Virus record (IMG/VR): IMGVR_UViG_3300032050_000178
Coordinates: 1 to 54,186 of that record
Direction: 5' to 3' (one strand)
Length of the DNA stretch: 54,186 nucleotides
DNA from: a virus
Shown one piece after another: positions 8,857 through 25,875 of the stretch (position 1 is the stretch's first letter; every line of letters starts with the position of its first letter). A program made the position numbers and the translations under genes. Below the pieces are notes generated by a model, which had not been told where the DNA came from, made no database searches, and saw only the letters and a program-made list of their open reading frames with translations.

Positions 8857-9768
8857 ATGGAAGTAGAAAATATGAGTAAGAATCAAAGACAAATTCAGAT
8901 CAACGTTGAAGAATTGCGTAAGAATAAATTCTTCATCGCCACTCCTTGTTATGGTGGTCAGTTAAACGAACCGTACTTCCGTTCTGTCATCAAGATGATG
9001 ACATTCTTTAATCAGCATCAAGTACCTCTAGCATTTGGTACTATTGCTAACGAATCGCTAGTAACACGCGCACGTAATGTGCTAGTAGCTTACTTCCTTA
9101 ACTCCGATTATACACATCTACTCTTCATCGATGCTGATATTGAGTTTCAAGTAGAAGATGTTCTTAAACTATACTACCATGATAGAGATGTAGTGGTTGG
9201 TGCTTATCCTAAAAAGGGTGTTGCATGGCAGCGTATTAAAGAAACCATGCAGGATAGTAATTTTAAAGACAAGCAATTGTCTGATAAAGAGATTGCTGCC
9301 TTTGGTTCTGACTATGCTATTAACTTCAAGTTTGTAGATAAAGAGGCAAAGTCTGTTGCTGTAGATCGTGGAGTAATTAAACTACATGATGCAGGGACCG
9401 GCTTTATGATGATTAAGAGAGACGCAATTCTTAAAATGATCAAAGCCTATCCTGAGCTAAGATACAACAACGATGTTGCTCTAGGTAATACTGATCTAGG
9501 TGATAATTTCTATGCCTTATTCGATACTATGATCGATCCTATTGATCGTCGTTATCTATCAGAAGATTATACCTTCTGTCGTCGTTGGCAAGAACTAGGT
9601 GGTGATATCTGGCTTGACCCTTCTATCTCGCTTAACCACTATGGTCACTTCTGCTTCCAGGGTAATCCTCAGGCTATCATTCAATTCGGGCCTCCTATTG
9701 AGACAACACAACCTGTTCGTCAAGATATTAAGACCATTGACCTCCCTGACGAGCTAGAGCGCGCTTAA
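8857..9768 (+). CDS. GT-A fold glycosyltransferase-like protein
   Basis: The 303-residue protein has the features of a small GT-A glycosyltransferase: FIATPCYGG at the start of the Rossmann-like domain, RARNVLVAYFL, and the DxD-type metal and nucleotide-sugar motif in LLFIDADIEF near residue 91. Further marks are DAGTGFMMIKRDA and LSEDYTFCRRW. Relatives are common next to capsid and uvs genes in T4-like aquatic phages. The acceptor could be a virion protein, modified DNA or cell-surface glycan and cannot be read from sequence. ATG 8857 is preferred to ATG 8872 because SD TTGGAG is 6-7 bases upstream. Confidence 0.8.
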   Translation: MEVENMSKNQRQIQINVEELRKNKFFIATPCYGGQLNEPYFRSVIKMMTFFNQHQVPLAFGTIANESLVTRARNVLVAYFLNSDYTHLLFIDADIEFQVEDVLKLYYHDRDVVVGAYPKKGVAWQRIKETMQDSNFKDKQLSDKEIAAFGSDYAINFKFVDKEAKSVAVDRGVIKLHDAGTGFMMIKRDAILKMIKAYPELRYNNDVALGNTDLGDNFYALFDTMIDPIDRRYLSEDYTFCRRWQELGGDIWLDPSISLNHYGHFCFQGNPQAIIQFGPPIETTQPVRQDIKTIDLPDELERA

Positions 9769-9782
9769 TAACACCTTATATT

Positions 9783-10223
9783 ATGAAATTAAGTGAATTA
9801 CAAGAAGAGTGGAAAAGGGACTCTGTTATAGATGAACTTAATCTAGGTAGAGAATCTACTAAGGTTCCCACTCTTCACTCCAAATATATTACCTTTCTAT
9901 CTAATGCGAAATTAAAACTTCGCAAAGCTGAGTCAGAGTATTATAATACCCGAAGAATGAAGTATCGTTATTATCGAGGTGAGCTATCGCAGGAAGAACT
10001 CATCCAGTATGGTTGGGAACAGTGGCAAGGTAATAAACCACTTAAAAACGAGATGGACGAGTTTCTTAACTGTGATAAAGATCTTATAGAATTTGAAGAT
10101 AAAATAGAATACTTTAGAACTATAGTGTATACGTTAGAACAAATTATTCGTTCACTTAACTCTAGAACTTGGGATATAAAATCGGCTATAGAATGGCATA
10201 AGTTTTCTAATGGTATGATTTAA
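9783..10223 (+). CDS. uvsY: Recombination mediator UvsY
   Basis: The 146-residue protein matches T4 UvsY in size and in its neighbourhood with UvsW. UvsY loads the UvsX recombinase onto gp32-coated single-stranded DNA. It is helical and rich in Tyr, Arg and Glu, with a conserved KSAIEWHKFSNG C-terminus. The gene overlaps uvsW by one base (TAATG), indicating coupled translation. Confidence 0.9.
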   Translation: MKLSELQEEWKRDSVIDELNLGRESTKVPTLHSKYITFLSNAKLKLRKAESEYYNTRRMKYRYYRGELSQEELIQYGWEQWQGNKPLKNEMDEFLNCDKDLIEFEDKIEYFRTIVYTLEQIIRSLNSRTWDIKSAIEWHKFSNGMI

Positions 10224-12756: not shown

Positions 12757-13590
12757 ATGTCAAAGATTAAAGTCGCGGAGTTATTTTACTCCATTCAAGG
12801 TGAAGGTCGCTATATGGGCGTACCTTCTGTCTTCCTAAGAACCTTCGGATGTAACTTCAAATGTGAAGGTTTCGGTATGCCTAAAGGTGAAAGGACCGAT
12901 GAGTATCTTAAAGTTAACCCTGATAGTTACAAATCTTACCAGGATCTTCCTCTTGTATCTACTGGCTGTGATTCTTACGCTTCTTGGGATCCTCGCTTTA
13001 AGCACTTATCCCCTGTTCTGGATAGTGAAGCAATTGCACAAGCCATTATCGAAATGCTTCCGCATAAAAGATGGAAAGATGAACATCTAGTTATTACTGG
13101 TGGTGAGCCTCTATTAGGATGGCAAAAAGCTTATCCTGATTTACTAAGCCATAGACTTATGTTAGGTCTTAAAGAAGTTACTTTTGAGACTAACGGTACT
13201 CAAGAGCTGTCTAGCGAGTTTAGAAAATATCTAACTAACTCTTTTAATTACGACGAAATAACTTTTTCAGTTTCACCTAAACTATCTGTATCAGGTGAGA
13301 AGTGGGAAGAGGCTATCAAGCCAGAAGTTGTTCGTGAATATGAAAAGGTTGGTTACACCTATCTTAAGTTTGTCGTTGCTACAGAAGAAGACGCGGAAGA
13401 AGCGCAAAAGGCTGTCTTCCAATATCAAAGTGCAGGTTTTAGTGGCCCGGTTTATTTAATGCCTGTAGGTGGTGTAGAATCTGTATACCACATGAATAAT
13501 AGAAAAGTAGCTGAATTAGCTATGAATAAGGGTTTTAGGTACTCAGATAGATTACAGGTACCTCTTTTTAAAAATGAATGGGGTACATAA
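12757..13590 (+). CDS. queE: 7-carboxy-7-deazaguanine synthase QueE (phage type)
   Basis: The 277-residue radical SAM enzyme converts 6-carboxytetrahydropterin to 7-carboxy-7-deazaguanine (CDG), the third step to preQ0. It opens with ELFYSIQGEGRYMGVPSVFLR, typical of QueE, and has ITGGEPLLGW and ETNGTQ. The cluster motif is unusual: CNFKC at residues 32-36 is followed by a ~40-residue insertion before the probable third ligand in STGCDSYASW, instead of the compact CxxxCxxC. It heads the deazaguanine block and overlaps the next start by one base (TAATG). Confidence 0.93.
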   Translation: MSKIKVAELFYSIQGEGRYMGVPSVFLRTFGCNFKCEGFGMPKGERTDEYLKVNPDSYKSYQDLPLVSTGCDSYASWDPRFKHLSPVLDSEAIAQAIIEMLPHKRWKDEHLVITGGEPLLGWQKAYPDLLSHRLMLGLKEVTFETNGTQELSSEFRKYLTNSFNYDEITFSVSPKLSVSGEKWEEAIKPEVVREYEKVGYTYLKFVVATEEDAEEAQKAVFQYQSAGFSGPVYLMPVGGVESVYHMNNRKVAELAMNKGFRYSDRLQVPLFKNEWGT

Positions 13591-13775
13591 TGTCAGAGAC
13601 ACATAGAAGGACTATAGTAAGAGCTATTACATGGCGAATTGTTGCTACTTTGGTAACAGCTGTATGGACAGGTTTGTCGGGAGCTATCATAATTAATATC
13701 TTCATGACAATAGCTCATTACATACATGAAAGAGCTTGGTTAAAAATTAAATGGGATACGGAAACGGAGAACTAA
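13590..13775 (+). CDS. Small membrane protein, DUF2061-like
   Basis: A 61-residue protein beginning MSETHRRTIVRAITWRIVAT, with two hydrophobic segments (about residues 15-32 and 34-46) and a C-terminal HERAWLKIKW motif, as in the DUF2061 family. The start at 13590 uses the TAATG overlap with queE rather than the ATG four codons upstream. DUF2061 modules occur in sulfur and nucleotide-metabolism contexts; its role here is unknown. Confidence 0.75.
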   Translation: MSETHRRTIVRAITWRIVATLVTAVWTGLSGAIIINIFMTIAHYIHERAWLKIKWDTETEN

Positions 13776-14453
13776 ATGTCATTACAAGTCGGTAAAACAG
13801 ATCCAGAGCTAGGTTATAAGATTGAGGAATATCTTCGTGAGAAGGGTGTACATACACCTACTATCATCGATAAGCTTAATGTAAAAGAAAAGTCGAAGAT
13901 TAACAAGATCGAAAAGCACTTTGCTGCTATTATGGATATTCTTGGTCTTGATCGTGAAGATGACTCATTGACTGATACTCCTCTGCGAGTAGCTAAGATG
14001 TATGTAAATGAAATCTTCTGGGGTTTGAAACCAGAGAACTTTCCTAAATGTACTGTCATCGAGAACAAGATGGGGTACGATGAAATGGTTATCGAGAAGG
14101 ACATTACACTAATGTCTAACTGTGAACACCATTTTGTTACTATTGATGGTAAGGCCCATGTGGCTTATATTCCTAAAGGTAAAGTATTAGGTTTATCTAA
14201 ACTTAATCGTATCGTTGAATATTTTGCACGTAGACCTCAAGTACAGGAACGTATTGCAGAACAAATCTATCATGCACTAGCGTTTATTCTGGGTACAGAT
14301 GATATTGCTGTTGTAATTGAAGGTACACACTACTGTGTAAAGAGCAGAGGTGTAGAAGATCATTCGTCTTATACCTACACAGCTAAGCTTGGTGGTTGTT
14401 TTAGAAGTGAACCAGAAGCACGTGCTGAGTTTATGACCTTGATTAAAAAATAA
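13776..14453 (+). CDS. folE: GTP cyclohydrolase I FolE
   Basis: The 225-residue enzyme converts GTP to dihydroneopterin triphosphate, the first step of 7-deazaguanine synthesis. Signature segments are [13 protein letters not shown] (residues 65-77), [20 protein letters not shown] (zinc ligand Cys116 and neighbouring His), [20 protein letters not shown] and [10 protein letters not shown] (Cys187). The C-terminus contains [17 protein letters not shown] precedes ATG 13776. It lies between queE and dpdA, consistent with dedicated supply for DNA modification rather than folate. Confidence 0.96.
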
Positions 14454-14455
14454 TT

Positions 14456-14824
14456 ATGAATCGATATATGAGGGGTGCTAAGATATACTTAGCAGAATTC
14501 ACCGATAAGGTAAATGGTGATACATTTTTAAAATTTGGTTACACAGGTTATAAAGATGCTGCTGATAGATTTCGTTTTGAGCCAGAGCAATACTCAAAGT
14601 GGGATATACGTATTCTTTGCACCGCTTATCATCCAGACAAAAGTGTTATTGAGCAAACAGAAGAGAGATTGAAGAAAAAATATCCTAAGAATTTTTGGTT
14701 AGAAGAAAAAATTGTAGGGGTAACTGAAATAGTTAAGATGAGCAAATCTACTAGATACGCAGCTATTCAGGAAGTTCGTAATCTTAATGAGCAATGGAAA
14801 AAAATATATGTTAATCAGCCATGA
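14456..14824 (+). CDS. Small protein with GIY-YIG-like (T5orf172/MUG113) N-terminus
   Basis: A 122-residue protein. The segment KIYLAEF followed by LKFGYTGYKDAADRF is similar to the first strands of GIY-YIG/MUG113-type nuclease domains, and a conserved-looking Glu sits in VIEQTEERLKKKYPKNFWLEE. I cannot confirm the full catalytic set. It lies between folE and dpdA, so it could be a modification accessory or a mobile endonuclease. It overlaps the dpdA start region by at least 17 bases. Confidence 0.55.
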   Translation: MNRYMRGAKIYLAEFTDKVNGDTFLKFGYTGYKDAADRFRFEPEQYSKWDIRILCTAYHPDKSVIEQTEERLKKKYPKNFWLEEKIVGVTEIVKMSKSTRYAAIQEVRNLNEQWKKIYVNQP

Positions 14825-15602
14825 AGTACCACTATCTTTACTAGGAAAATCTATAGCATTTAATGATTATGACTATGCTCTAGTTCATCTGTTTGAAACA
14901 GAGCCACTATACTATAAGTTTTTTGAGGAGTCACTAGCTCAAGGAAGAAAAGTTATCTTAGATAACTCGGTGTTTGAATTAGGTGAAGCTTTTAACATGA
15001 ATACGTTTGCAAAATATGTTAACCAGCTTAAACCTACAGAGTATATTATACCAGATGTTCTAGAGAATATGGAAAGAACAATTGGTAATGCTATGATGTT
15101 TAAAGAGCTATTCCCTGATCTACCAGGAAAATCTATTGGTGTCGTTCAAGGCAAAAATTATAGGGATCTAGTTACATGTTATGAGGAACTAGATATACTA
15201 GGTGTAGATAAAATTGCTTTTTCATTTGACTATAGTTATTATGAAGATTTATATAAGCACCCTAACAAATGGATGTCCTTTACACTAGGTAGAGTACAAA
15301 CACTAACGAGAATGTTAAATGAAGGAATTATTAACAAGGATAAACCACATCACCTACTGGGTTGTTCACTACCTATCGAATTCTTGTTTTATAGACAAGG
15401 GTTCGAATGGATTGAGACCATGGATACTTCCAGCCCTGTGGTTCATGGGCTTCTTAATACTCTTTACGAGCCTGGTGGTTTGGTTGATAAGCAGTCCATT
15501 AAACTGGTCGACTTATTATATTCCGTACCCGATCATGAGCAGATGAGTTTTATTCAAGCAAACATTAATTACTTTAGATCGTATGTAAAAGGTACAGAGT
15601 AA
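14808..15602 (+). CDS. dpdA: DNA 7-deazaguanine transglycosylase DpdA-like
   Basis: The 264-residue protein resembles phage DpdA, a tRNA-guanine-transglycosylase relative that exchanges guanine in DNA for a preQ base. Visible family-like elements are ILDNSVFELGEAF near residues 50-62 (candidate catalytic Asp52), EYIIPDVLENMERT (Asp83), IGVVQGKNY and KIAFSFDYSYY, giving a TIM-barrel pattern. It is shorter than bacterial TGT. The start is uncertain: ATG 14787 is in frame, but MLISHEVPLS at 14808 looks like a natural N-terminus. Its neighbours are folE, a formyltransferase and queF. Confidence 0.85.
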   Translation: MLISHEVPLSLLGKSIAFNDYDYALVHLFETEPLYYKFFEESLAQGRKVILDNSVFELGEAFNMNTFAKYVNQLKPTEYIIPDVLENMERTIGNAMMFKELFPDLPGKSIGVVQGKNYRDLVTCYEELDILGVDKIAFSFDYSYYEDLYKHPNKWMSFTLGRVQTLTRMLNEGIINKDKPHHLLGCSLPIEFLFYRQGFEWIETMDTSSPVVHGLLNTLYEPGGLVDKQSIKLVDLLYSVPDHEQMSFIQANINYFRSYVKGTE

Positions 15603-16165
15603 TGTACTGGATTGCTTTTTTTAGTCAAACAGGATCAGAGATAGTTCATCTATCTAAAGAACTAGGTCGCTCACCTGATTTAATTCTTACTAATAACAAA
15701 GATGTTTCAACATATCACCCTGATATGGTACTTCTAAGTATACCAATGTACGTAGCAGGGCATGATGGTCTAATGCAATTTCTTCGTGATAATTATAATA
15801 ACCCTAAAGAAGTACTGATTACTCTACACGGGTATTTAAGAATTATACCACCAGACGTTTGTGAACGATTTGAAATCTATAACGGCCATCCCGGCTACAT
15901 TACAGCATACCCTGAACTTAAAGGTAAAGACCCACAAGTAAAAGCTTGGGAAGCCAGGCATCGTTGGGTAGGTTGCGTTATACACAAAGTAACAGCAGGT
16001 GTAGATGAAGGTCCTATTGTCGACCAGACAGGCGTACCGAATACAGCTAATTCATTAGACGAATTGTATAGCCTATTAAAGAGAAAATCGCTATACTTAT
16101 GGGAAAAGTTTATGTGGGGAAAGTTAAATGAAAATAGCGATAAGCGGCGCTCAATCAGTAGGTAA
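15602..16165 (+). CDS. dpdN: Formyltransferase-like protein, candidate dPreQ1 formyltransferase DpdN
   Basis: The 187-residue protein carries the core of PurN/Fmt-type formyltransferases: YNGHPG at residues 93-98 (catalytic Asn94 and His96), a KGKDPQVKAWEA substrate loop, and VGCVIHKVTAGVDEGPIVDQ with catalytic Asp135. In published work on phage deazaguanines (from memory), a formyltransferase called DpdN was predicted to formylate preQ1 in DNA. Here it is coupled to dpdA by a one-base overlap (TAATG) and queF lies two genes on, so this role fits well. The exact acceptor is inferred. Confidence 0.8.
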   Translation: MYWIAFFSQTGSEIVHLSKELGRSPDLILTNNKDVSTYHPDMVLLSIPMYVAGHDGLMQFLRDNYNNPKEVLITLHGYLRIIPPDVCERFEIYNGHPGYITAYPELKGKDPQVKAWEARHRWVGCVIHKVTAGVDEGPIVDQTGVPNTANSLDELYSLLKRKSLYLWEKFMWGKLNENSDKRRSISR

Positions 16166-16685
16166 GACTACATTAATTAATGCTTTACGTTCTGAAGAAG
16201 CATTAAAGCAGTATACCTTTTGTACCGAAGTGACTAGACGTGTTAAGGGTTATGGGTTAAACATAAATGAAGAAGGTGATGACATTACGCAGAGATTGAT
16301 AATGCAAGAACATATTGTTAATGTCTTTATGAACGACAATATGATATCAGATAGATGTGCATTAGACGGTATTGTTTACTCTCACTACTTAGCAGAAAAT
16401 AAAAAAATAACTCAGAAGACATATGATTTTGCTGATAACATATTCAACAAACTCATGCCAAAGTATGACCTAGTCTTTTATATTCCACCAGAATTTGAAA
16501 TAGAAGATGACGGAACAAGAAGTATTAATAGGCATTTTAGAGATAGAATTGTAACATTATTTGATAGTTATATTAAAGAAAAACAATTAACTACCGTCTA
16601 CCTAGTAGGTTCAGTTAGAGAAAGAGTAGATACGGTACTTAAATATATAAAGGATGTTGAGCATGAGCAATCAAGAAGAACTTAA
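16128..16685 (+). CDS. P-loop NTPase, nucleotide or NadR-type kinase-like
   Basis: The 185-residue protein begins MKIAISGAQSVGKTTLI with Walker A GAQSVGKT at residues 7-14. It then has EVTRRVKGYG, a DRCALDGIVYS segment near 76-86 that resembles the second Asp/Arg motif of nucleoside and NadR-type kinases, and YDLVFYIPPEFEIEDDG. It overlaps the formyltransferase gene by 38 bases. It may phosphorylate a nucleotide or modified base precursor, but the substrate is not readable. Confidence 0.75.
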   Translation: MKIAISGAQSVGKTTLINALRSEEALKQYTFCTEVTRRVKGYGLNINEEGDDITQRLIMQEHIVNVFMNDNMISDRCALDGIVYSHYLAENKKITQKTYDFADNIFNKLMPKYDLVFYIPPEFEIEDDGTRSINRHFRDRIVTLFDSYIKEKQLTTVYLVGSVRERVDTVLKYIKDVEHEQSRRT

Positions 16686-17586
16686 TAAGCTAGTATCAGT
16701 TCACTTAGGTAAGGCAGGTGACGGTACGGTTGTAAAACCTTATGTTACACCTGACGATGTAGATCCTACTCTACTAGTAGCTGTACCAAGACATTTAAAC
16801 AGGACGCAATATGATATTCAAGAAGATGACTTACCGTTTGTGGGAGTCGATGCGTGGAACGCTTATGAGTTCTCAACTCTTTTGGATAATGGTTTTCCCG
16901 TCTCTGGTTGGCTTAAGTTTGTCTATGATTCTGATTCCCCTAATATTGTGGAGTCTAAATCAGTAAAGCTATACCTTAACTCTTATAACATGGCGCGTCT
17001 CATTACATCTACATCTGACTTCTGGATGGTAGAAGATAGGATTGCCAGAGACTTGAGTGATGCTACCGGTGGTGAAGTAGAAGTATATGCGTTCTTTGGA
17101 GATGTAGATACTACAAGACCTATTAGTAGTGATTTTGTATCTCTCGAATCTTACTGTAATGTAGAAAAAATGCAGTTTACAGACTATAATGAGTCTGCCA
17201 GTATTTTAGAAGTTGTTCCTTCTATTGGTCGTTATGAAAGATGGCGTTCACATTCTCTACGTTCAAATTGTCGAGTAACTAATCAACCGGATTGGGGTGA
17301 TGTGTATGTACATATTAAAGGTGATAAGGCAGTTACTCCAGAATCTCTATTGCAATATATTGTTAGCATGCGCAAAGAGAACCACTTCCACGAAGAAATT
17401 TGTGAATGTATTTACAAACGTTTGTGGGATCTATTACAACCCGAGGAACTATTCGTGGCATGCCTCTATACTCGGAGAGGTGGTATTGATATTAACCCTG
17501 TACGAGCTTCAAGCCATGATGTGCTCTACACGTACGGTAACATAGCCAGTTCAATTACAGCATGTACTAAAACAGCTAGACAGTGA
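16663..17586 (+). CDS. queF: NADPH-dependent preQ0 reductase QueF (long type)
   Basis: The 307-residue two-domain QueF reduces the preQ0 nitrile to the preQ1 amine. The N-terminal half has ESKSVKLYLNSYN (97-109), the nicotinamide-binding motif. The C-terminal half has SNCRVTNQPDWGDVYVHI with nucleophile Cys203 and acid Asp210, then HFHEEICECI and YTRRGGIDINPVR. All key residues are present. ATG 16663 is preferred over 16654 because SD AAAGGA is 8 bases upstream. Having QueF means the pathway goes past preQ0 to preQ1. Confidence 0.95.
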   Translation: MSNQEELNKLVSVHLGKAGDGTVVKPYVTPDDVDPTLLVAVPRHLNRTQYDIQEDDLPFVGVDAWNAYEFSTLLDNGFPVSGWLKFVYDSDSPNIVESKSVKLYLNSYNMARLITSTSDFWMVEDRIARDLSDATGGEVEVYAFFGDVDTTRPISSDFVSLESYCNVEKMQFTDYNESASILEVVPSIGRYERWRSHSLRSNCRVTNQPDWGDVYVHIKGDKAVTPESLLQYIVSMRKENHFHEEICECIYKRLWDLLQPEELFVACLYTRRGGIDINPVRASSHDVLYTYGNIASSITACTKTARQ

Positions 17587-17593
17587 GGATATT

Positions 17594-18064
17594 ATGGGAT
17601 TAGTTGCCTATGCAGAAAATGAATTAGATCGTATCGGTATGACCGATGACGGAGATATGAATGGTATTATGCGTAAACATCTCCTTCATATGGTACATGA
17701 GTTCGCTGAAGAAGGTCACTCTGGGTTTTCAGCCAGTTATGCCTTACAATGTCTTAAAAAACTTCTTAACTTTAAACCACTATCACCATTGACAGGTGAA
17801 GATGATGAATGGTCAGAAGTTACACAAAGGAGTGGATACCCACATTTCCAAAATAAACGTTGTGGTTCTGTATTCAAAGATGGTAAGAATGGTGAAGCAT
17901 ATGACATCGATGGTAAGGTATTTTGGGAATGGTATATTGATAAAGAAACTGGTGAAAAACAAAAATCATACTATACCTGTTTTGAATCTAGAGTACCTGT
18001 AACTTTTCCTTATGTAGTGCCCGACGAGCCAATTTATGAATATAGAGAAAGTGGTGCAGAATGA
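17594..18064 (+). CDS. Conserved phage hypothetical protein
   Basis: A 156-residue protein with an N-terminal helical half (residues 1-60, MVHEFAEEGHSGFSASYAL) and a C-terminal half rich in Gly, Trp and Tyr (SGYPHFQNKRCGSVFKDGKNG, FWEWYIDKETGE). Proteins of this layout occur in many phages without known function. It lies between queF and a MazG-like gene and overlaps the latter by 4 bases. Confidence 0.75.
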   Translation: MGLVAYAENELDRIGMTDDGDMNGIMRKHLLHMVHEFAEEGHSGFSASYALQCLKKLLNFKPLSPLTGEDDEWSEVTQRSGYPHFQNKRCGSVFKDGKNGEAYDIDGKVFWEWYIDKETGEKQKSYYTCFESRVPVTFPYVVPDEPIYEYRESGAE

Positions 18065-18273
18065 AGTCACCAGATAATAATGTAAATGAAATATGTGAAC
18101 AGTTTGTAACTCGTTCGCAACATGGGTTTAATAAGTACGGGGTAACTACTGAACGTACTGACTTAGACTTTGATCAATGGATACAGCATCTGAAAGAAGA
18201 ACTTATGGATGCTGTAGTTTATATTCATCGTATACAAAAAGAAAGAACTAAGTACAGAGATGACATTAAATGA
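18061..18273 (+). CDS. Short MazG-like nucleotide pyrophosphohydrolase-type protein
   Basis: A 70-residue helical protein with QWIQHLKEELMDAVVYIHRIQ, the EExxD-type helix of the all-alpha NTP pyrophosphatase superfamily, but too short for a complete canonical MazG domain. A GVTTERTDLDFDQW segment precedes it. It may act as an oligomer on a noncanonical or modified NTP. It overlaps queC by 14 bases. Confidence 0.65.
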   Translation: MKSPDNNVNEICEQFVTRSQHGFNKYGVTTERTDLDFDQWIQHLKEELMDAVVYIHRIQKERTKYRDDIK

Positions 18274-19021
18274 CGCCCTAGACCTTTTACCAGATACTTC
18301 CGGATGTGTAGTTATTTTATCCGGTGGTATGGATTCTACTATTGCTATGAGATTGGCTGTAGAAAAATATGGTAGTAAAAACGTATCTGCCTTAACTTTT
18401 GATTATGGTCAAAAGCAATCAAAAGAGATTACTATGGCAGGTATTTCAACTGCTATACTTCGTGTTACTCATAAAGTAATAGATGCTTCGTTCTTAGGTG
18501 ATATATCTAAAGGCTTTTCAGCCAATGTAGATAAAGATATCGCCATGCCAACGATTAAAGAAGTGTTAGGTGATCCTAGACCAAAGACATATGTACCTAA
18601 TCGTAATATGATCTTAATGTCTATTGCAGCAGCCTATGCTGAAACGAGAAACGTAGATACTATTCTTTGTGGCTTACAGGTACATGACGAGTATGGTTAT
18701 CATGATACTACTCAAAGGTGGGTTAATAAAGTAAACGATCTACTATCAGAAAATAGAATTATAAAAATTAAACTGGTAGCACCGTTTAGTAAACTATCCA
18801 AGTATGATGAGTTACAGCTACTTCGGGAAATGGAAGGCAATCTACAATTGACTGCTTTCACATTAACATGCTATAATCCCAATGAAGATGGAGACTCATG
18901 CGGTAAATGTCCTAGTTGCTCTGAAAGAATCGCTAACTTTGCTAAGATAGGTGAAAGAGATCCTAAGACTTACTCTATGAGTATACCTTGGGATGACTTG
19001 ATTAGTAAAATGAAAGTATAA
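18260..19021 (+). CDS. queC: 7-cyano-7-deazaguanine (preQ0) synthase QueC
   Basis: The 253-residue ATP-dependent enzyme converts CDG and ammonia to preQ0. The PP-loop SGGMDS is at residues 21-26, FDYGQKQSKE follows at 48-57, and a C-terminal zinc site is formed by Cys204, Cys214, Cys217 and Cys220. RNMILMSIAAAYAE and GYHDTTQ also fit the family. The next gene encodes a class II glutamine amidotransferase domain, which is fused to QueC in GAT-QueC proteins. Confidence 0.96.
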   Translation: MTLNDALDLLPDTSGCVVILSGGMDSTIAMRLAVEKYGSKNVSALTFDYGQKQSKEITMAGISTAILRVTHKVIDASFLGDISKGFSANVDKDIAMPTIKEVLGDPRPKTYVPNRNMILMSIAAAYAETRNVDTILCGLQVHDEYGYHDTTQRWVNKVNDLLSENRIIKIKLVAPFSKLSKYDELQLLREMEGNLQLTAFTLTCYNPNEDGDSCGKCPSCSERIANFAKIGERDPKTYSMSIPWDDLISKMKV

Positions 19022-19022
19022 T

Positions 19023-19637
19023 ATGTGCGCTATATTCTGTTCTTTTGATGTAAACACACTCAATAAACTTTATAAGCTAAATGCATATCGAGGTGAGCTT
19101 GGTTACTCATTAGGCATCTTTAAAGCAGAAGCAGTTGCTGTTATACAAAATCTTTTCCAAGAAAGAGAACCTTATCCTGAAGATTTTATTTCTAAAATAG
19201 GTGCACCAGGTTATTACTATGTAGGGCATAGTCAAGCACCAACTACAGATAACGATAATCAGCACCCCAGTGTAGTTAACGGTACGTACCTATGGCATAA
19301 TGGTATTATTAAACAATCTAATATACCTGAAGGGTACTGGGATACACTCTGGTTACATGAAAAACTGGTTTATAAAGGTTATCATGCGTTATCCGAAGTA
19401 GATGGTACTTTTGCCTGTGTATACTATAATAACTATGAGTTGATGGTTTTCCGAAATGAAATTTCTCCTCTTTATTATGACGAGAATCTAAACATATCTT
19501 CTACTGAGTTCGAAGGTAGTACATTATTACCACCTAATAAAATATTCAGAATCAACTTACATAACTATAAAGAACTACCTATGTCTGAAATACATAGTTT
19601 TGATACAAAAGAGAATCCTTATTTTATACCGGAGTGA
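19023..19637 (+). CDS. Free-standing class II glutamine amidotransferase domain
   Basis: The 204-residue protein is an Ntn-type glutaminase domain without a synthetase partner in the same chain. Cys2 would become the N-terminal nucleophile. AYRGELGYSLG, VGHSQAPTTDNDNQHP with His69, WHNGIIKQ (NG at 93-94) and DGTFACVYYNNYELMVFRNE correspond to the glutamine-site motifs of asparagine-synthase-type GATases. It starts one base after queC ends, so it may deliver ammonia to QueC or amidate the deazaguanine, as GAT-QueC does for archaeosine. Substrate is inferred from context. Confidence 0.8.
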   Translation: MCAIFCSFDVNTLNKLYKLNAYRGELGYSLGIFKAEAVAVIQNLFQEREPYPEDFISKIGAPGYYYVGHSQAPTTDNDNQHPSVVNGTYLWHNGIIKQSNIPEGYWDTLWLHEKLVYKGYHALSEVDGTFACVYYNNYELMVFRNEISPLYYDENLNISSTEFEGSTLLPPNKIFRINLHNYKELPMSEIHSFDTKENPYFIPE

Positions 19638-19639
19638 TT

Positions 19640-20137
19640 ATGAAGCATGTAGCTGGATCCAACAGCAAAACAACTCTCACTAATGTACAAGAAGGTGACG
19701 TACAGCCTAATGCAATAGACCTGAGACTAGATAAAGTATATTCCATTAACGAACAAATATTTGAGATTAGTAATGATCATAAAAAACATCGTGGGTCTAC
19801 GGAAATCTTTCCTGACGAGGATGGATATTTTACGCTTTCACCGGGGTCTTATGAGATCGTTATGGAGAACATCATCCATGTGGGAGAGGGTGAAGCTGGT
19901 TGGGTCATTACTAGGAGCACTCTTAACAGAAACGGCTGCTTCATTACTTCAGGTTTGTATGATTCTGGTTATCATGGTGTTATGGCCGGGGTACTACATA
20001 TTCAGGTTGGTACGGCGAGGATTAAAAAGGGTACAAGGGTAGGTCAGTATCTATCGTTTGATGCCGAAGCACTACATAACTATGATGGTGATTACGGTAT
20101 AAACAAAGAGCACGATAAAAAATATAGCCAAGTATAA
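19640..20137 (+). CDS. dcd: dCTP deaminase / dUTPase-family protein
   Basis: About 165 residues of the trimeric dCTP deaminase/dUTPase fold: QPNAIDLRLDKVY, a helix-free beta core, ITRSTLNRNGC, SGLYDSGYHGVMAGVLHI and KGTRVGQYLSFD. It would convert dCTP to dUTP or dUMP and feed thymidylate synthesis. The ATG at 19640 has SD GGAG at 19631-19634; a GTG at 19634 that overlaps the upstream stop is the alternative. Distinguishing deaminase from dUTPase needs alignment of the active-site Glu. Confidence 0.8.
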   Translation: MKHVAGSNSKTTLTNVQEGDVQPNAIDLRLDKVYSINEQIFEISNDHKKHRGSTEIFPDEDGYFTLSPGSYEIVMENIIHVGEGEAGWVITRSTLNRNGCFITSGLYDSGYHGVMAGVLHIQVGTARIKKGTRVGQYLSFDAEALHNYDGDYGINKEHDKKYSQV

Positions 20138-20141
20138 CATT

Positions 20142-21095
20142 ATGGCAAAGAATATTCTCGTTACAGGCGCTACCGGTTTTATTGGTGGCGCTATCTGCAT
20201 TGAGTTAAATAGGTTAAAACATAATGTAATCGGTGTTGATAAAGTATACCGAGAAAGAATTAACCCCTACATAGATAAGTTCTATAAGGGGGACATATTA
20301 GATGTTATTACTCCAGAATTTTTACAGCAATATAAGTTTGATGCTGTAATACACTGTGCGGGTACAAACCTAGTTGGTCCAAGTATACATTGGCCAGACA
20401 ACTATTATGTAAATAACGTATCTAAGACTATACATCTAATAAGCTTACTTAGTAGATATCAAAAACACACACACTTCATGTTTAGTAGTAGTGCATCTGT
20501 CTATAGAACTAATAACAATCTATTAGACGAAGAAGCTGTAAAAGAACCACAATCACCTTATGCCAGAACAAAGTTAATGGTTGAGGAGGTTCTTGAAGAC
20601 TATAGAAAAGCTCATGACTTTAAATATACAGCCTTCAGGTATTTCAATGCATGTGGATCCGTAGGTAGTATACATGGTCAAGAACCTCACTCGACACATA
20701 TCTTTCCTCAGTTATTCGAATCTAAATCATTTGTATTAAATGGTACGGATTATAAAACTGAAGACGGTACTTGTGTAAGAGATTATATTCATATTAACGA
20801 TATTGCTACAGCACATGTTAGAGCTATGGAAAGACATGCCATAGGAGTATATAATCTAGGTAGTGGTGTAGGCATGTCCAACCAGCAAATTATTAACAAA
20901 GTGTTTGAGAAGATTGGTGAACAACCAATACGCATAGGTCCTAGAAGACCTGGAGATTGTGATAAGCTAGTAGCAGATATATCTAAAGCTAAAATGATAT
21001 TACAATGGACACCAGTTTGTACATTATCAGATATAGTTAATGATCTAGATGAATGGTATAAATCTTCTAACTATAGAAAAATAAAGTTTTATTAA
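20142..21095 (+). CDS. NAD-dependent epimerase/dehydratase (GalE-like)
   Basis: The 317-residue extended short-chain dehydrogenase has GATGFIGG (residues 8-15) for NAD binding, SSSASVY for the catalytic Ser region, SPYARTKLMVEE with the YxxxK pair, and CVRDYIHINDIA, typical of UDP-glucose 4-epimerases. It would act on a nucleotide sugar, perhaps to supply glycosylation of virion, DNA or host surface. It lies between dcd and queD. Confidence 0.88.
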   Translation: MAKNILVTGATGFIGGAICIELNRLKHNVIGVDKVYRERINPYIDKFYKGDILDVITPEFLQQYKFDAVIHCAGTNLVGPSIHWPDNYYVNNVSKTIHLISLLSRYQKHTHFMFSSSASVYRTNNNLLDEEAVKEPQSPYARTKLMVEEVLEDYRKAHDFKYTAFRYFNACGSVGSIHGQEPHSTHIFPQLFESKSFVLNGTDYKTEDGTCVRDYIHINDIATAHVRAMERHAIGVYNLGSGVGMSNQQIINKVFEKIGEQPIRIGPRRPGDCDKLVADISKAKMILQWTPVCTLSDIVNDLDEWYKSSNYRKIKFY

Positions 21096-21104
21096 GAGGT
21101 AAAA

Positions 21105-21617
21105 ATGTCCGATCAACGCATTTCAAGAACTTACAAATATGTAAGTACAAAAGAGTATCACGATTCGTTTCCTTGTGCATATCGCCAATGGCGTGCCGAC
21201 TCACATTGTAACCTAATTCATGGTTACAGTTTTAACATGAAGTTTTATTTCGGTACAGATCATCTAGATGTACGTAATTGGGTAGCTGATTATGGTGGTT
21301 TAAAAGAGCTGAAGAACGTCCTAGAGGATCAATTTGATCATACTTTACTTGTAGCTCAGGATGATCCAGAAATTGATATGTTTTATAAACTACAGGAGAA
21401 AAAATTAGCTAAGCTTACTATACTACCTAGGTTAGGATGTGAGGGTCTAGCTGATATGCTTTATAAGTATGTAAACGGGGTATATATCCCCGACATGTGG
21501 GGTCCCGGTGAAGCCGATCGCTTATGGTGTTATAGAGTAGAAGTAAGAGAAACACAGAGCAACATGGCATGGCGTGAAGGTCATAGGGAGTGGAACGAAG
21601 ATCTTTTCGAAGGATAG
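21105..21617 (+). CDS. queD: 6-carboxytetrahydropterin synthase QueD-like
   Basis: The 170-residue T-fold enzyme makes 6-carboxytetrahydropterin, the second step to preQ0. SHCNLIHGYSFNMKFYFG holds the catalytic Cys35 and zinc His39, followed by VADYGGLKELKNVLEDQFDHTLL (His79) and VEVRETQSNMA (Glu149). The usual HGH is HGY here and the first metal-ligand region reads FPCAYRQ rather than xAxH, so metal ligation may differ. SD AAGAGG precedes ATG 21105. Confidence 0.88.
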   Translation: MSDQRISRTYKYVSTKEYHDSFPCAYRQWRADSHCNLIHGYSFNMKFYFGTDHLDVRNWVADYGGLKELKNVLEDQFDHTLLVAQDDPEIDMFYKLQEKKLAKLTILPRLGCEGLADMLYKYVNGVYIPDMWGPGEADRLWCYRVEVRETQSNMAWREGHREWNEDLFEG

Positions 21618-22839: not shown

Positions 22840-24551
22840 TTATATTTAAATCGATCAAGTATCGTAATTTTCTATCGACCGGTAGCCAGTTTACAGAAAT
22901 ATACTTTAACAAATCACCTATGACGTTGATTGTAGGTGAGAATGGTGCGGGAAAGTCTACCGTGCTTGATGCGTTATGTTTTGTATTGTTTGGTAAACCG
23001 TTTAGAAATATTAACAAGCCTCAACTGATTAATAGTATCAACAACAAGCAGCTAGAAGTTGAGGTTGAGTTCAGCATTGGTACAAAAGAGTATAAGATAA
23101 GACGAGGTGCAAAGCCAAATATCTTTGAAATATACTTGAACGACCAATTGCTGAATCAAGATGCAGCTGCTAGAGACTACCAAAAGTACTTAGAAGAGCA
23201 TGTTCTTAAACTTAACTTCAAGTCTTTTACGCAGATCGTTATTCTTGGTTCAGCATCCTTTACACCTTTTATGCAACTACCCACAGGGCATAGAAGAGAA
23301 ATTATCGAAGACCTTTTAGACATAAAGATCTTCTCTGTAATGAACGATGTATTAAAGCAAAAGTATAACGATATAAAAGATAAGGTCAGTGCTCTTGAAA
23401 GTGAAATTAGTGTAGGTAAGACAAAAGTCAAGCTACAGCAAGACTATGTTAAGACCTTAGAAGATGATAAGCAAAAGAAGGTAGAAGATGTACAAAAACG
23501 CATATCTGAATCGTCTGCAGAGATTACAAAACTCAATGCTAGCGTTACAGTCGAGAAAGAAAAAGAAACTGGCCTTCAATCCAGTATACTCGACGCGAAG
23601 GAGAAGCGTGGCAAGAGATCTGAAATGGAAGCTCTCCTTAGAAAACTTGCCGAAAAAATTAAGACTCAAGAAAAGCATATTGGGTTTTACGAGCAACATG
23701 ATGTATGCCCGACATGTAATCAAGGGCTTGATGAGTCACACAAGCATGAAGCGATCACCACGCATACGCATAAGATCGGAGAAGTACAAACTGCCATCGA
23801 ATCTCTCTCCTCACAGCTTGAAGTTATTGAAACTAGACTTGATGAGATTGCTGCTATCGAGGAAGAAATTTCTCAATGTAAAGAAAATATTATCGAGCTC
23901 AATACAAAAATTATCGCCGAACAAAACTACATTAAAAAGCTCCAGGATGAGCTTCAGGCTCAAGCGACTGACAACGCTAATGTCGAGGACGAGAAGAAGA
24001 AAATCAAAGACTTGGCGAAACAAGTGGTTGAACTCGCCAATAAAAAAAGTGAATTATCGGAGGAAAGGTTCTACCTGGAAGTGGCAGGTATCCTTCTCAA
24101 AGACACCGGAATTAAAACTAAAGTCATAAAGCAATATTTACCAGTCATTAATAAGCTCGTTAATAAGTATTTACAGGCTATGGACTTTTTTGTCCATTTC
24201 GAATTAGACGAGACATTTAATGAAACAATCAAATCAAGACATAGAGACGAGTTCTCATATGCGTCGTTTAGCGAGGGTGAGAAGCAGCGTATTGATCTTG
24301 CTCTTCTTTTTGCTTGGCGTACTATTGCAAAGATGAAGAACTCAATAAGTACAAACTTATTGATGTTAGACGAAGTATTCGACTCCTCACTAGATATAAA
24401 TGGTACCGACTTTGTAATGACATTACTACACACTCTGGGTGATGAGACTAATGTGTTTATTATTAGTCATAAGGATGCTTTATTCGATAAGTTCAGAAGT
24501 GTAATTAAGTTTGAAAAGAAGAATGGTTATAGTCAGATTGCGAGAAACTAA
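22836..24551 (+). CDS. 46: Recombination nuclease subunit gp46 (Rad50-like)
   Basis: The 571-residue SMC-type ATPase has Walker A GENGAGKST (residues 34-42), long coiled coils on both sides of the zinc hook CPTC near residue 290, the ABC signature FSEGEKQR near 478 and Walker B LLMLDEVFDSS near 509. It is the ATPase partner of gp47. Length and order match T4. A long open frame on another frame inside the coiled-coil region is not a gene. Confidence 0.96.
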   Translation: MIIFKSIKYRNFLSTGSQFTEIYFNKSPMTLIVGENGAGKSTVLDALCFVLFGKPFRNINKPQLINSINNKQLEVEVEFSIGTKEYKIRRGAKPNIFEIYLNDQLLNQDAAARDYQKYLEEHVLKLNFKSFTQIVILGSASFTPFMQLPTGHRREIIEDLLDIKIFSVMNDVLKQKYNDIKDKVSALESEISVGKTKVKLQQDYVKTLEDDKQKKVEDVQKRISESSAEITKLNASVTVEKEKETGLQSSILDAKEKRGKRSEMEALLRKLAEKIKTQEKHIGFYEQHDVCPTCNQGLDESHKHEAITTHTHKIGEVQTAIESLSSQLEVIETRLDEIAAIEEEISQCKENIIELNTKIIAEQNYIKKLQDELQAQATDNANVEDEKKKIKDLAKQVVELANKKSELSEERFYLEVAGILLKDTGIKTKVIKQYLPVINKLVNKYLQAMDFFVHFELDETFNETIKSRHRDEFSYASFSEGEKQRIDLALLFAWRTIAKMKNSISTNLLMLDEVFDSSLDINGTDFVMTLLHTLGDETNVFIISHKDALFDKFRSVIKFEKKNGYSQIARN

Positions 24552-25144
24552 TGGAACATCAATTATATGATTGGCCTCTAGATGTTATAGAAGGTCCGCT
24601 TTATATTACCTTTGAAGACTTTCTAACCCCTGAAGAGGTAGATAAGGTACACCAACTAGGCAATGCTCAAGTGATGAGAAGAGCGTCTACCTATACAGAT
24701 GGAAGTGAAGATCCTGAAGTAAGAAAGTCTACCATAAGCTGGATTCCTTCTAATAATACTAATGCTCATTGGTTATTTAAGAAGCTTCAGAATAAAATAT
24801 TTGAAGTTAATAACGATAAGTACAAATATGATTTGTTCTCAATAGATCATCTTCAATATGCTATTTACGGTAAGTATGAGCATTTTACTGACCACATAGA
24901 CATTAGTAGTGCAGGGAGAATGGGAATACGAAAGCTAAGTTTTTCTATTCAACTAACTGATGGTGACACATATAAGGGTGGAGACTTATCGTTGAAACAC
25001 ATAGAAGTTAAACCGGTAGTTCTATCTCGTAAAAAAGGATCGATTTCTTTCTTTCCAGCATACATTGTACATGGAGTCTCTCCTGTACTGCAAGGAGAAA
25101 GAAGAGCCCTAGTTGGTTGGGTTCAGGGTCCTAGATGGAGATAA
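24551..25144 (+). CDS. 2-oxoglutarate/Fe(II) oxygenase (prolyl hydroxylase-like)
   Basis: The 197-residue protein has the double-stranded beta-helix pattern: HFTDHID gives the HxD metal ligands, GGDLSL follows, ISFFPAYIVHGVSPV gives the distal His and RRALVGWVQG the 2OG-binding Arg. Such P4Hc-type oxygenases are common in T4-like aquatic phages, with unknown substrates. It overlaps gp46 by one base. Two further members occur at 47920 and 52720. Confidence 0.85.
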   Translation: MEHQLYDWPLDVIEGPLYITFEDFLTPEEVDKVHQLGNAQVMRRASTYTDGSEDPEVRKSTISWIPSNNTNAHWLFKKLQNKIFEVNNDKYKYDLFSIDHLQYAIYGKYEHFTDHIDISSAGRMGIRKLSFSIQLTDGDTYKGGDLSLKHIEVKPVVLSRKKGSISFFPAYIVHGVSPVLQGERRALVGWVQGPRWR

Positions 25145-25159: not shown

Positions 25160-25432
25160 ATGTCAAACATACCTCCAGAGTATCTAGATGATAGCTTTGA
25201 CTTTGGCTTTACAGCTGTAGACGAAGAATACATTACCTCACCAGTATTAACAGAAACCTACACTACAGTAGAAGGTGAGTATAAAGCTAAATTAAAAGCT
25301 GTAGAGCAACTTATTATTCCTTTGCTAGTTAACCTGATGAAGAATCCTGATAAGGATTATATTAAGTGGCCTAATAGAGCTCCACAGATACAAAAGCAAA
25401 TTGATAAAATTTTAGGGATTACAAGAAGCTAA
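25160..25432 (+). CDS. Conserved phage hypothetical protein next to gp46
   Basis: A 90-residue protein with an acidic aromatic N-terminus (DDSFDFGFTAVDEEY) and a helical C-terminus ending NRAPQIQKQIDKILGITRS. Similar proteins lie near gp46 in other T4-like aquatic phages. No enzymatic motif is visible. SD GAGAG precedes ATG 25160, and the next gene starts at its last base. Confidence 0.7.
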   Translation: MSNIPPEYLDDSFDFGFTAVDEEYITSPVLTETYTTVEGEYKAKLKAVEQLIIPLLVNLMKNPDKDYIKWPNRAPQIQKQIDKILGITRS

Positions 25433-25875
25433 TGTTTAGTAAAAGAGATAAAGACCTATATTTAGACAACTCGTCTATAAGAAACTATACACTAGAGATT
25501 ATCAAGCAAATGAATCAGGATAATTGGACTCCTGATGTAGTGTTAGGTTTTGCAAGAGGGGGTTTAATTCCTGCTATCTTTATTAGTCACTGGTATGATA
25601 TACCTATGATAGCTATTAATAAAGATAAAGAGTTTGATAACAGGTTAGACTATGACAACGTTCTTGTTATTGACGATATAAACGATACAGGTAATACGCT
25701 TGCTTATTTCGATGAGAAGGTTAGACCTAGGTTTAGAAACGTAAAATATGCTGCTGTAATTAACAACGAAGCATCTAAGTTTGACATTAATTACTTTGGG
25801 TATTCTTACAACAAAACAGAAGAGCCTAACTGGATCGTCTTCCCTTGGGAAACCTGGTGGCACGACCGGCTATAA
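25432..25875 (+). CDS. Phosphoribosyltransferase-domain protein
   Basis: The 147-residue protein has the type I PRTase pattern: VVLGFARGGLIPAIFISHW near residues 37-55 and the PRPP loop VLVIDDINDTGNTL near 75-88, with a hydrophobic tail WIVFPWETWW. It resembles hypoxanthine/xanthine PRTases and may salvage a purine or a deazaguanine-like base. Its last ~50 bases overlap the converging minus-strand endonuclease gene. Confidence 0.85.
   Translation: MFSKRDKDLYLDNSSIRNYTLEIIKQMNQDNWTPDVVLGFARGGLIPAIFISHWYDIPMIAINKDKEFDNRLDYDNVLVIDDINDTGNTLAYFDEKVRPRFRNVKYAAVINNEASKFDINYFGYSYNKTEEPNWIVFPWETWWHDRL

Follow-up and report, generated by a model that had tools for sequence, protein, structure and literature searches.

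Other DpdA enzymes are thought to exchange the base in DNA that has already been replicated, and phages with a DpdA of the short kind described below are reported to have all their dG replaced. A 2023 study by Cui is said to set apart a DpdA3 subfamily, which groups with the DpdA of Campylobacter phage CP220 and reportedly replaces all dG. DpdN, which we take to be a predicted dPreQ1 formyltransferase, is presumably recognised by a Formyl_trans_N match, an N-H-D triad and linkage to dpdA and queF. Replacement of a base before replication is exemplified by hmC in T4 and diaminopurine in S-2L. A passage of PMC12783734 concerns the S-2L diaminopurine route, and one of PMC6884629 reports that phages of the CP220 kind carry dADG.

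The window, which is the whole stretch of DNA analysed here (54,186 nucleotides; IMG/VR virus record IMGVR_UViG_3300032050_000178), holds queE, folE, dpdA, a gene for a PurN-like formyltransferase, long-type queF, queC and queD between positions 12757 and 21617. These are the genes that the original prediction had listed, and each is an open ORF on the forward strand with a family match. Missing from that list were the genes, also on the forward strand, for a kinase, a glutamine-amidotransferase-like protein and, beyond the range it covered, a phosphoribosyltransferase. The same cassette is seen again in many IMG/VR contigs, and its arrangement is therefore not due to chance.

All five enzymes of the preQ0/preQ1 pathway, FolE, QueD, QueE, QueC and QueF, have family matches. 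The radical-SAM 7-carboxy-7-deazaguanine synthase queE (12757..13590) matches PHROG 2076 (QueE-like; E 2.8e-54), and its cysteines C32, C36 and C71 are kept in at least 90% of 156 aligned sequences; their spacing corresponds to a long insert inside CX3CX2C, the usual radical-SAM cysteine motif of queE. GTP cyclohydrolase I, folE (13776..14453), matches PF01227 (E 2e-60), preQ0 synthase, queC (18260..19021), matches PF06508 (E 3.1e-51), and 6-carboxytetrahydropterin synthase, queD (21105..21617), matches PHROG 2389 (E 4.9e-37) and PF01242 (E 1.2e-15). The nitrile reductase queF (16654..17586), for the step from preQ0 to preQ1, was rightly called long-type: it combines PF14819 (QueF_N) with PF14489 (QueF) and matches the solved long-type QueF 3bp1 (E 1.7e-44). 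Its C206 and D213 are kept in at least 97% of 242 aligned sequences, and its motifs are also conserved. The stand-alone class II glutamine-amidotransferase-like protein (19023..19637) matches PHROG 12378 (E 6e-41) and, below the Pfam cut-off, GATase_7 (E 0.015); its N-terminal Cys2 is kept in at least 90% of 73 aligned sequences, and it is a possible ammonia donor to QueC. Between queF and queC lies a small ORF (18061..18273) that is conserved in the clade, with E46, E47 and D50 conserved among 77 aligned sequences. By eye only, it resembles MazG-like pyrophosphohydrolases; no Pfam family, MazG included, matched it above cut-off. The phosphoribosyltransferase (25432..25875; PRT7 HMM E 7.9e-31, PHROG 8995 E 5.2e-13) has a possible role in salvage of the released guanine.

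The dpdA gene (14787..15602) encodes a guanine transglycosylase of the short (CP220/immuto) kind. Its product has no Pfam match; it belongs to PHROG 19058 (E 4.4e-50), the family that holds CP220 gp056, and is 43-48% identical to CP220-type and immuto proteins (43-45% to the CP220 type); it may fall within the DpdA3 grouping. The likely start is the ATG at 14808, as first proposed, rather than 14787, because CP220 gp056 begins MLVSHE at that point, which makes for the better family fit. A structure search with the model (pLDDT 94.3), which had been suggested as a check, returned the TGT fold, with solved TGT and DpdA structures nearest: the top 50 VIA rows are all TGT or DpdA (Z 18.1-18.8), and in Foldseek the first six rows are TGT or DpdA, followed by other TIM barrels. 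The putative catalytic residues D59 and D213 (numbered from 14787), present in at least 98% of 289 aligned sequences, presumably correspond, by motif context, to TGT D102 and D280. Charge was uninformative as a sign of a DNA or a nucleotide substrate (median pI 5.25 in the family of the window DpdA versus 5.6 in 9g DpdA).

The product of 15602..16165 has the features ascribed to DpdN: it matches PF00551 (Formyl_trans_N, E 1.7e-10), its gene is linked to dpdA and queF, and it carries N94, H96 and D135, which we take to be the catalytic N-H-D triad. Already pointed out from the sequence, all three residues are individually kept in 97% or more of 218 aligned sequences. The protein is 49.7% identical to its immuto counterpart. 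Alignment with sugar formyltransferases, the case once raised against the assignment, is not what is seen, the nearest solved chains being PurN types (from 9.5e-10) versus 6.6e-5 for the sugar enzyme PseJ. The dpdN slot is swappable, and in four contigs (L406-L409) it is occupied by a GNAT acetyltransferase. We tentatively regard the middle gene of the cassette as an exchangeable decorating module, which may be a formyltransferase, a GNAT acetyltransferase or perhaps an amidoligase-like protein (L304). A GNAT enzyme in this slot would predict an acylated preQ1 base such as 7-(acetylamino)methyl-7-deazaguanine, which we do not know as a DNA base; the swappable slot would in this way give specific, testable forecasts of new DNA bases. 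A passage of PMC12839542 mentions acyl and 7-deazaguanine derivatives that may act as self-markers for a BREX-related system.

The gene that overlaps both dpdN and queF (16128..16685) encodes a nucleoside/nucleotide kinase of PHROG 2107. Its G7, G12, K13, T15, D75 and R76, which make up the Walker A and DR motifs, are present in at least 97% of 281 aligned sequences, and its model (pLDDT 93.2) matches the fold of NadR-kinase (Z 18.6) and, level at about Z 15.5, those of dCK, dGK and TMPK.

This kinase is a near-universal partner of the short (CP220/immuto) DpdA subfamily. Among loci drawn from the best 80 of 229 and the best 80 of 581 search candidates, a selection that therefore under-samples the most remote DpdA members, 119 of 125 non-redundant DpdA genes have a kinase gene no more than 3.5 kb downstream; when only the DpdA-query loci from these best candidates are counted, the same distance holds the kinase in 80/86, QueF in 78/86 and DpdN in 53/86. 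Four of the six loci without a nearby kinase still carry one on the contig: in L300 it is just upstream of DpdA (visible in L202, which is that same contig), and in L270, L281 and L286 it is 6-7 kb downstream; L290 and L308 had no kinase of the PHROG 2107 type. Coarser clustering lowers the linkage, to 25/30 at 70% and 7/10 at 55%. The kinase is nearby in all 18 phage records with a short DpdA (43-48% identity), is the next gene after DpdA in 14 Campylobacter records, and in four immuto records follows DpdA, a small ORF and the formyltransferase. DpdN was not found in 26 KIN-QueF clusters, and neither DpdN nor QueF in three clusters (one of them CP220-type); the kinase was kept in all of these, which makes action on the side chain unlikely. 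Its position is steady even where the remaining pathway genes are ordered differently.

As a control, 61 loci with a phage-9g-type DpdA, which also bear 7-deazaguanine genes, were searched: the kinase family was found in none, and in 14 of the 9g-type loci no kinase family of any sort reached E 1e-3 among 107 neighbour ORFs. In Campylobacter phage CC_R7 a diverged DpdA (hhalign 99.0) adjoins a diverged kinase (hhalign 99.1) at a new genome site, between queC and DNA polymerase. A first profile had missed this pair, and the idea that CC_R7 had lost both genes was dropped, as was a suspected stop in its QueC, which is annotated as a full CDS. Remote short DpdAs are flanked by AAA_18 in MA9V-3 and by DNMK in Ahp1, kinases without a match to the kinase profile (probability 4.7 and 3.2, respectively), and by a P-loop protein in Youna2 and, more weakly, in BSP7; a scan for further BSP7-type DpdAs returned no relatives. 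Distances correlate with r 0.77 for DpdA and kinase and r 0.65 for DpdA and QueF, the former being a weak sign because linked genes co-inherit. The passages of PMC6884629, PMC12783734, PMC8651126, PMC8056088 and PMC12839542 that we consulted mention no tie between a kinase and DpdA, and neither fdPreQ1 nor DpdA3 occurs among the matches listed in the literature search; the novelty of the link is provisional.

Phosphoribosyltransferase HMM matches occur in 23 of the 61 9g-type loci, so this family is not specific to the short kind of DpdA and was ruled out as its mark. Immuto-type MazG was present in 25 of 75 wide loci only, and MazG was likewise rejected as a universal DpdA partner; a PF01503 search of two longer records gave no match, and a longer record with an identical dpdA gave a partial MazG match (23.5 bits, cut-off 22). 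No clear dGTP-removing enzyme was found in the window cassette. Neighbour family 17, considered as a GMP reductase, is a ribonucleotide reductase subunit, and L267 and L302 are the only loci where genes with an IMPDH/GMP-reductase domain could be confirmed; a PDB search with an unknown protein from L195 gave no usable match. With genes for phosphoribosyltransferase, RNR, dCTP-deaminase-like proteins and MazG near many short DpdAs, the neighbourhood is generally nucleotide-rich.

The analysis shows which genes are present, which residues are conserved, how the products fold and, with the 9g-type loci as control, that DpdA and the kinase are linked; every catalytic step, and the base in virion DNA, we infer. 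FolE, QueD, QueE and QueC would make preQ0, perhaps fed by the amidotransferase-like protein, and QueF would convert it to preQ1. The short DpdA would put preQ1 in the place of guanine on a deoxyribose; before or after this exchange, the amine of the aminomethyl group would be formylated by the PurN-like enzyme. The cassette probably makes 2'-deoxy-7-(formylamino)methyl-7-deazaguanine by this path, and the proposal of formylated preQ1 in phage DNA, a kind of base predicted before, is well supported. This much of the original prediction holds up, with a gene order common to immuto, N94, H96 and D135 intact and a PurN-like formyltransferase. It had also proposed that the base would protect against restriction, a putative role, and had placed the insertion by DpdA in DNA. 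The identity of DpdA stands, and insertion at the DNA level is only one option for the site of its action. Exchange on the nucleotide pool appears at least as likely, because a near-universal nucleos(t)ide kinase lies beside the short DpdA and was not found in 9g-type loci.

In the pool route, the substrate of DpdA would be a deoxynucleoside or deoxynucleotide in free form; the exchanged product would be phosphorylated by the kinase toward a modified dGTP, which the phage polymerase would use. We consider the chances of such an exchange, followed by kinase phosphorylation, to be evenly balanced. It would account for the pairing of the kinase with DpdA regardless of the side chain, and also for the complete replacement of dG reported for such phages. 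The fold of the kinase, the diverged pair in CC_R7, the kinases that flank remote short DpdAs and the kinase paralogue beside dUTPase also speak for it. The fuller reading, in which a TGT-fold enzyme on the free pool and a dedicated kinase supply modified dGTPs, all dG is replaced before polymerisation and the decorating gene is exchangeable, is tentative and falls a little short of an even chance. Against the pool route, the TGT-fold enzymes studied so far act, to our knowledge, on polynucleotides; Crippen in 2019 reportedly saw no dADG phosphates in the pools of infected cells, and Cui in 2023 is said to have concluded that insertion is post-replicative. Further points against it are the lower linkage under coarser clustering, the two loci L290 and L308, the failure to find a clear dGTP-removing enzyme in the window cassette and the mismatch of the MA9V-3 and Ahp1 kinases with the kinase profile. 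Nucleotide-metabolism genes also often cluster in phages, and an operon can hold a kinase without a common step. The phosphoribosyltransferase genes would fit the pool route too, yet they also lie near 9g-type DpdA.

The same formyl-preQ1 cassette might instead serve a DpdA that swaps the base in replicated DNA, with the kinase engaged in nucleotide supply (e.g. recycling of host-DNA dNMPs) and kept by operon inheritance. Such an arrangement would suit the TGT and DpdA structures found as nearest folds, the nucleotide-rich neighbourhood and the kinase paralogue that adjoins dUTPase in phages IBB_35 and CC_R7. The kinase, however, is closer to universal than QueF or DpdN, keeps its place while other pathway genes are reordered, accompanies DpdA at its different genome position in CC_R7 and was not found in any of the 61 9g-type loci, which also have 7-deazaguanine genes; we regard this explanation as possible but somewhat doubtful. 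If the formyltransferase acted on another substrate, a purine or a sugar, the DNA base would be plain dPreQ1, and it is true that the Pfam match spans residues 71-149 only and that the PurN equivalog is far off (43.6 bits, cut-off 150). This is nevertheless unlikely, given that, among 80 formyltransferase-query loci, all 64 that extend 3 kb or more downstream have the kinase within 3 kb and a DpdA in the locus, and that another N-acyltransferase family fills the same slot in four contigs.

In phage hypermodification of hydroxymethyluracil a kinase phosphorylates the base in DNA, and P-loop kinases act in some phage base hypermodifications. A like role here, in which the modified base, or else its side chain, is phosphorylated within DNA to give a further unknown base, is very improbable: the kinase also occurs in CP220, of the kind reported with dADG (in a passage of PMC6884629), it is found in cassettes with a formyl-, an acetyl- or no recognised decorating enzyme, and its modelled fold matches small-molecule nucleos(t)ide kinases. 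A mere rise in queuosine precursor for host tRNA, proposed for some phages without DpdA in a passage of the same paper, is hardly credible for a phage in which DpdA, the formyltransferase and the kinase share one operon. Exchange on the nucleotide pool would reopen the question of whether complete replacement of dG by 7-deazaguanines takes place before or after replication, with the kinase as the gene to test it on, and the modified-dGTP route, if true, would offer a natural enzyme source for 7-deaza dNTPs.

Flavobacterium phage vB_FspM_immuto (MW353176), isolated on Flavobacterium sp. LMO8, shares with the window the order dpdA, formyltransferase, kinase, queF (48% identity for DpdA, 50% for the formyltransferase and 38% for the kinase), and has folE, queD and queE just upstream of the cassette. 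Unlike the window, it has a MazG-like gene before dpdA and a small ORF after it, and its queC lies about 15 kb upstream, whereas queC, the amidotransferase-like gene and queD of the window are downstream. In CP220 (Firehammervirus) a short DpdA (about 44%) is followed directly by the same kinase family, but no formyltransferase or queF lies beside DpdA, and an HD-AAA protein precedes dpdA. The T4-like Vibrio phage KVP40 has a run of folE, dpdA2, a long-sized queF and then queC (operon gene names from a passage of PMC8056088); its DpdA2, however, has 459 residues, and no gene, for a formyltransferase or a kinase, separates dpdA2 from queF. Phage 9g (DpdA1) resembles the window in having FolE, QueD, QueC, a radical-SAM protein and a queuine-transferase-like DpdA, but there is no match between the two DpdA profiles (hhalign 1.4), and it is in the loci of the 9g type that the kinase family was not found (0/61). 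Kinases are also found among the modification genes of the pre-replicative T4 and S-2L systems, and a thymidylate-kinase homologue of phage RB69 is presumed, in a passage of PMC8056088, to be active in arabinosyl-hmdCMP synthesis. The window would differ from T4 and S-2L in that its modified nucleotide would arise by base exchange on a transglycosylase fold, a putative nucleotide-level activity.

The modification genes of the 54,186-base IMG/VR virus record form a forward-strand run at 12757-21617, which encodes QueE, FolE, DpdA, a PurN-like formyltransferase (DpdN), a small kinase and a long-type QueF, continues with a Tad3-like protein, a small conserved ORF, QueC and a stand-alone amidotransferase-like protein, and ends with a dCTP-deaminase-like protein, a nucleotide-sugar epimerase and QueD. 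All genes of the original prediction (queE, folE, dpdA, formyltransferase, long-type queF, queC and queD) are present there. The DpdA, formyltransferase, kinase and QueF genes overlap or almost abut, with median offsets of 0, 0 and 3 bases across the retrieved loci (stop codons excluded). An identical DpdA occurs in at least four other contigs among the best 80 matches, one of them 165 kb long.

The window DpdA falls in PHROG 19058, which also contains CP220 gp056, and gave no match in a Pfam search. Its model (pLDDT 94.3) returned TGT or DpdA in all of the top 50 VIA rows (Z 18.1-18.8, 234-239 of 271 residues) and in the first six Foldseek matches, with other TIM barrels following from E 8e-5. 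Of 289 aligned sequences, at least 98% keep D59 and D213. The formyltransferase (15602-16165) had been described as PurN-like with Asn94, His96 and Asp135; these residues are conserved in at least 97% of 218 aligned sequences, and the closest solved relatives are PurN types, a sugar formyltransferase of the kind that would speak against the prediction matching more weakly. QueF is of the long type, as proposed, with C206, D213 and the ESKS and HFHE motifs conserved in at least 97% of 242 aligned sequences. The formyl-preQ1 reading of the cassette, as a new member of a previously predicted kind, is well supported.

In the window QueE (12757-13590), 34 residues separate the second and third radical-SAM motif cysteines (codons 32-72); the spacing is comparable in several window-clade sequences among those displayed and is 7 residues in immuto-type QueE. 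Between folE and dpdA, an ORF at 14456-14824 overlaps the dpdA ORF at its 5′ end and matches the C-terminal part of the phage endonuclease family PHROG 681 (E 2.1e-5); it is perhaps a homing-endonuclease remnant. Inside the operon, 17594-18064 matches Tad3, an inhibitor of type I Thoeris defence (PF25185, E 8.8e-40), and all 11 matches to it were the window itself or contigs with identical DpdA. A 2OG-Fe(II) oxygenase-like protein (PF13640, E 5e-12) is encoded at 24551-25144, downstream of a pair of ORFs resembling T4 gp47 and gp46 on visual inspection.

Several of the searches that supplied loci, DpdA and 9g-type DpdA included, were limited to the best 80 matches. All retrieved loci together contained 297 DpdA ORFs, which grouped into 160 clusters when 95% identity was required; among the 125 usable clusters (at least 3.5 kb downstream, linkage counted on the same strand up to 3.5 kb away), 119 had the kinase, 116 QueF and 90 DpdN. 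A recount restricted to DpdA-query loci, which removes the bias of the kinase and formyltransferase queries, gave 112 clusters, 86 of them usable, with the kinase in 80, QueF in 78 and DpdN in 53; the corresponding counts were 25, 23 and 20 of 30 usable clusters at 70% clustering, and 7, 5 and 4 of 10 at 55%. Six of the 86 clusters lacked a kinase within range: in L300 it lies immediately upstream, visible in L202 from the same contig, L270, L281 and L286 carry formyltransferase-kinase-QueF 6-7 kb downstream of DpdA, and in L290 and L308 the kinase was not found in the locus.

The kinase, present in 73 of 75 wide loci drawn from all queries, was the commonest DpdA neighbour, followed by QueF (69), DpdN (58), QueE (47) and FolE (46). 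DpdA, DpdN if any, kinase and QueF are consecutive without an intervening pathway gene in 69 of the 75; the other pathway genes vary in order, giving 16 arrangement strings, some of which differ only through genes absent or outside the loci. The DpdA match is of the short CP220/immuto kind in 18 of 22 annotated phage records, and the kinase is near in all 18, which derive from two phage groups only: it is immediately next in 14 Campylobacter records and follows a small ORF and the formyltransferase in four immuto records. Kinase-query loci (best 80 of 151) comprised 75 with DpdA, two without, and three truncated at a contig end next to DpdN and QueF, counts that are biased because the query was built from linked kinases. 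In several loci (including L116:1476-1823 and L268:9342-9686), the formyltransferase and the kinase are separated by a conserved ORF of 115 residues, which bears a weak resemblance to DUF1599, nucleotide modification associated domain 1 (E 0.071, L268 copy).

The pairing recurs at a second genomic position. Campylobacter phage CC_R7 lacks the DpdA-kinase pair at the CP220 position, which is occupied by a 1.2-kb stretch with no annotated gene and two homing-endonuclease-like ORFs. Between its queC and DNA polymerase genes, a diverged DpdA (hhalign probability 99.0) is immediately followed by a kinase that has also diverged (99.1). Remote short DpdAs were found in Aeromonas phage Ahp1 (97.5) and in Bacillus phage BSP7 with Weizmannia phage Youna2 (99.1). 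That of Ahp1 adjoins a kinase of another kind, DNMK (PF21448, 64.3 bits against 27.1); Ahp1 is a T4-like phage, in which such a kinase is expected somewhere in the genome anyway. The counterparts adjoining DpdA in Youna2 (hhalign 82.9) and BSP7 (31.5) are P-loop proteins, and in Chryseobacterium phage MA9V-3 an AAA_18 kinase-like protein precedes the DpdA match (28% identity).

The position between DpdA and kinase is swappable. Three loci (L240, L267, L275) have a GNAT acetyltransferase in place of the formyltransferase (PF00583, 22.9 and 28.5 bits in L240 and L267, cut-off 20.7; the L275 protein is 84% identical to that of L267). A search with the GNAT protein returned four contigs, three of them those of L267, L275 and L240, and all four have the order DpdA-GNAT-kinase-QueF without DpdN (GNAT at L406:5001-5540, L407:5001-5540, L408:5001-5540 and L409:617-1159). 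Locus L304 has no formyltransferase there and encodes an Amidoligase_2-like protein (8980-9975; 18.4 bits, short of the cut-off of 22), which may add an amino acid to preQ1. Acylated preQ1 bases are therefore predicted, the GNAT cassettes predicting acetylated (acylated) preQ1 in DNA. Flavin-dependent tryptophan-halogenase homologues within the interval (L024:5123-6709, L299:8807-10387; matching solved halogenases at E 2e-62 and 1.8e-41) possibly halogenate a base or are unrelated inserted genes. Locus L195 lacks QueF and has a FolE2-type gene following the kinase; in this position it encodes a 276-residue protein (9167-9997) with no Pfam match above cut-off and no usable PDB match.

The kinase itself (16128-16685, forward strand) belongs to PHROG 2107. 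Its model (pLDDT 93.2) is closest to the NadR ribosylnicotinamide kinase (Z 18.6), followed by deoxycytidine, deoxyguanosine and thymidylate kinases, tied at about Z 15.5, so the product most probably phosphorylates a small molecule, either a nucleoside or a nucleotide. CP220 has a second family member, as do IBB_35 and CC_R7, where it adjoins dUTPase and thus fits a deoxynucleotide kinase. The family also matches in 84 Streptomyces phage records; in Karimac (L217:8210-9618), which has no DpdA or QueC match, it directly follows a PHROG 8156 methyltransferase, perhaps for another nucleotide-level modification.

The kinase is retained with QueF alone, with QueF and formyltransferase, and with QueF and GNAT, and is present in CP220, which has no QueF or formyltransferase nearby. 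Because it is kept across cassettes differing in side-chain chemistry, it most likely acts on the sugar-phosphate end. In the proposed route, DpdA would put preQ1 in the place of guanine on a free deoxynucleos(t)ide, the formyltransferase would act on the base or nucleotide, and the kinase would phosphorylate the modified product for incorporation. The alternative is exchange in replicated DNA: Crippen in 2019 reportedly saw no dADG phosphates, and Cui in 2023 is said to have found insertion to be post-replicative, both of which speak against exchange on free nucleotides. A phosphoribosyltransferase lies near both DpdA kinds (23 of 61 9g-type clusters) and so is no evidence for the free-nucleotide route. 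A modified-dGTP route was raised for Campylobacter phages in 2019, when DpdA was not known in them, in a passage of PMC6884629. What seems new to us is the linkage of the kinase, together with the swappable slot, within a searched literature that lacked two key papers on short DpdA.

Other DpdA kinds served as a control. The 84 loci with 9g-type DpdA (best 80 matches in one search) gave 61 usable clusters, with QueC in 57, QueD in 59, QueE in 54 and FolE in 59; none of the 61 had a match to the kinase family at E 1e-3. A Pfam scan of 107 neighbour ORFs of 14 such loci, from 139 ORFs listed for 16, found no kinase among 21 families at E 1e-3. In the T4-like Vibrio phage KVP40, whose DpdA is named DpdA2 in passages of PMC8056088, folE, dpdA2, queF and queC are consecutive, and neither formyltransferase nor kinase lies between dpdA2 and queF, where the window has both.
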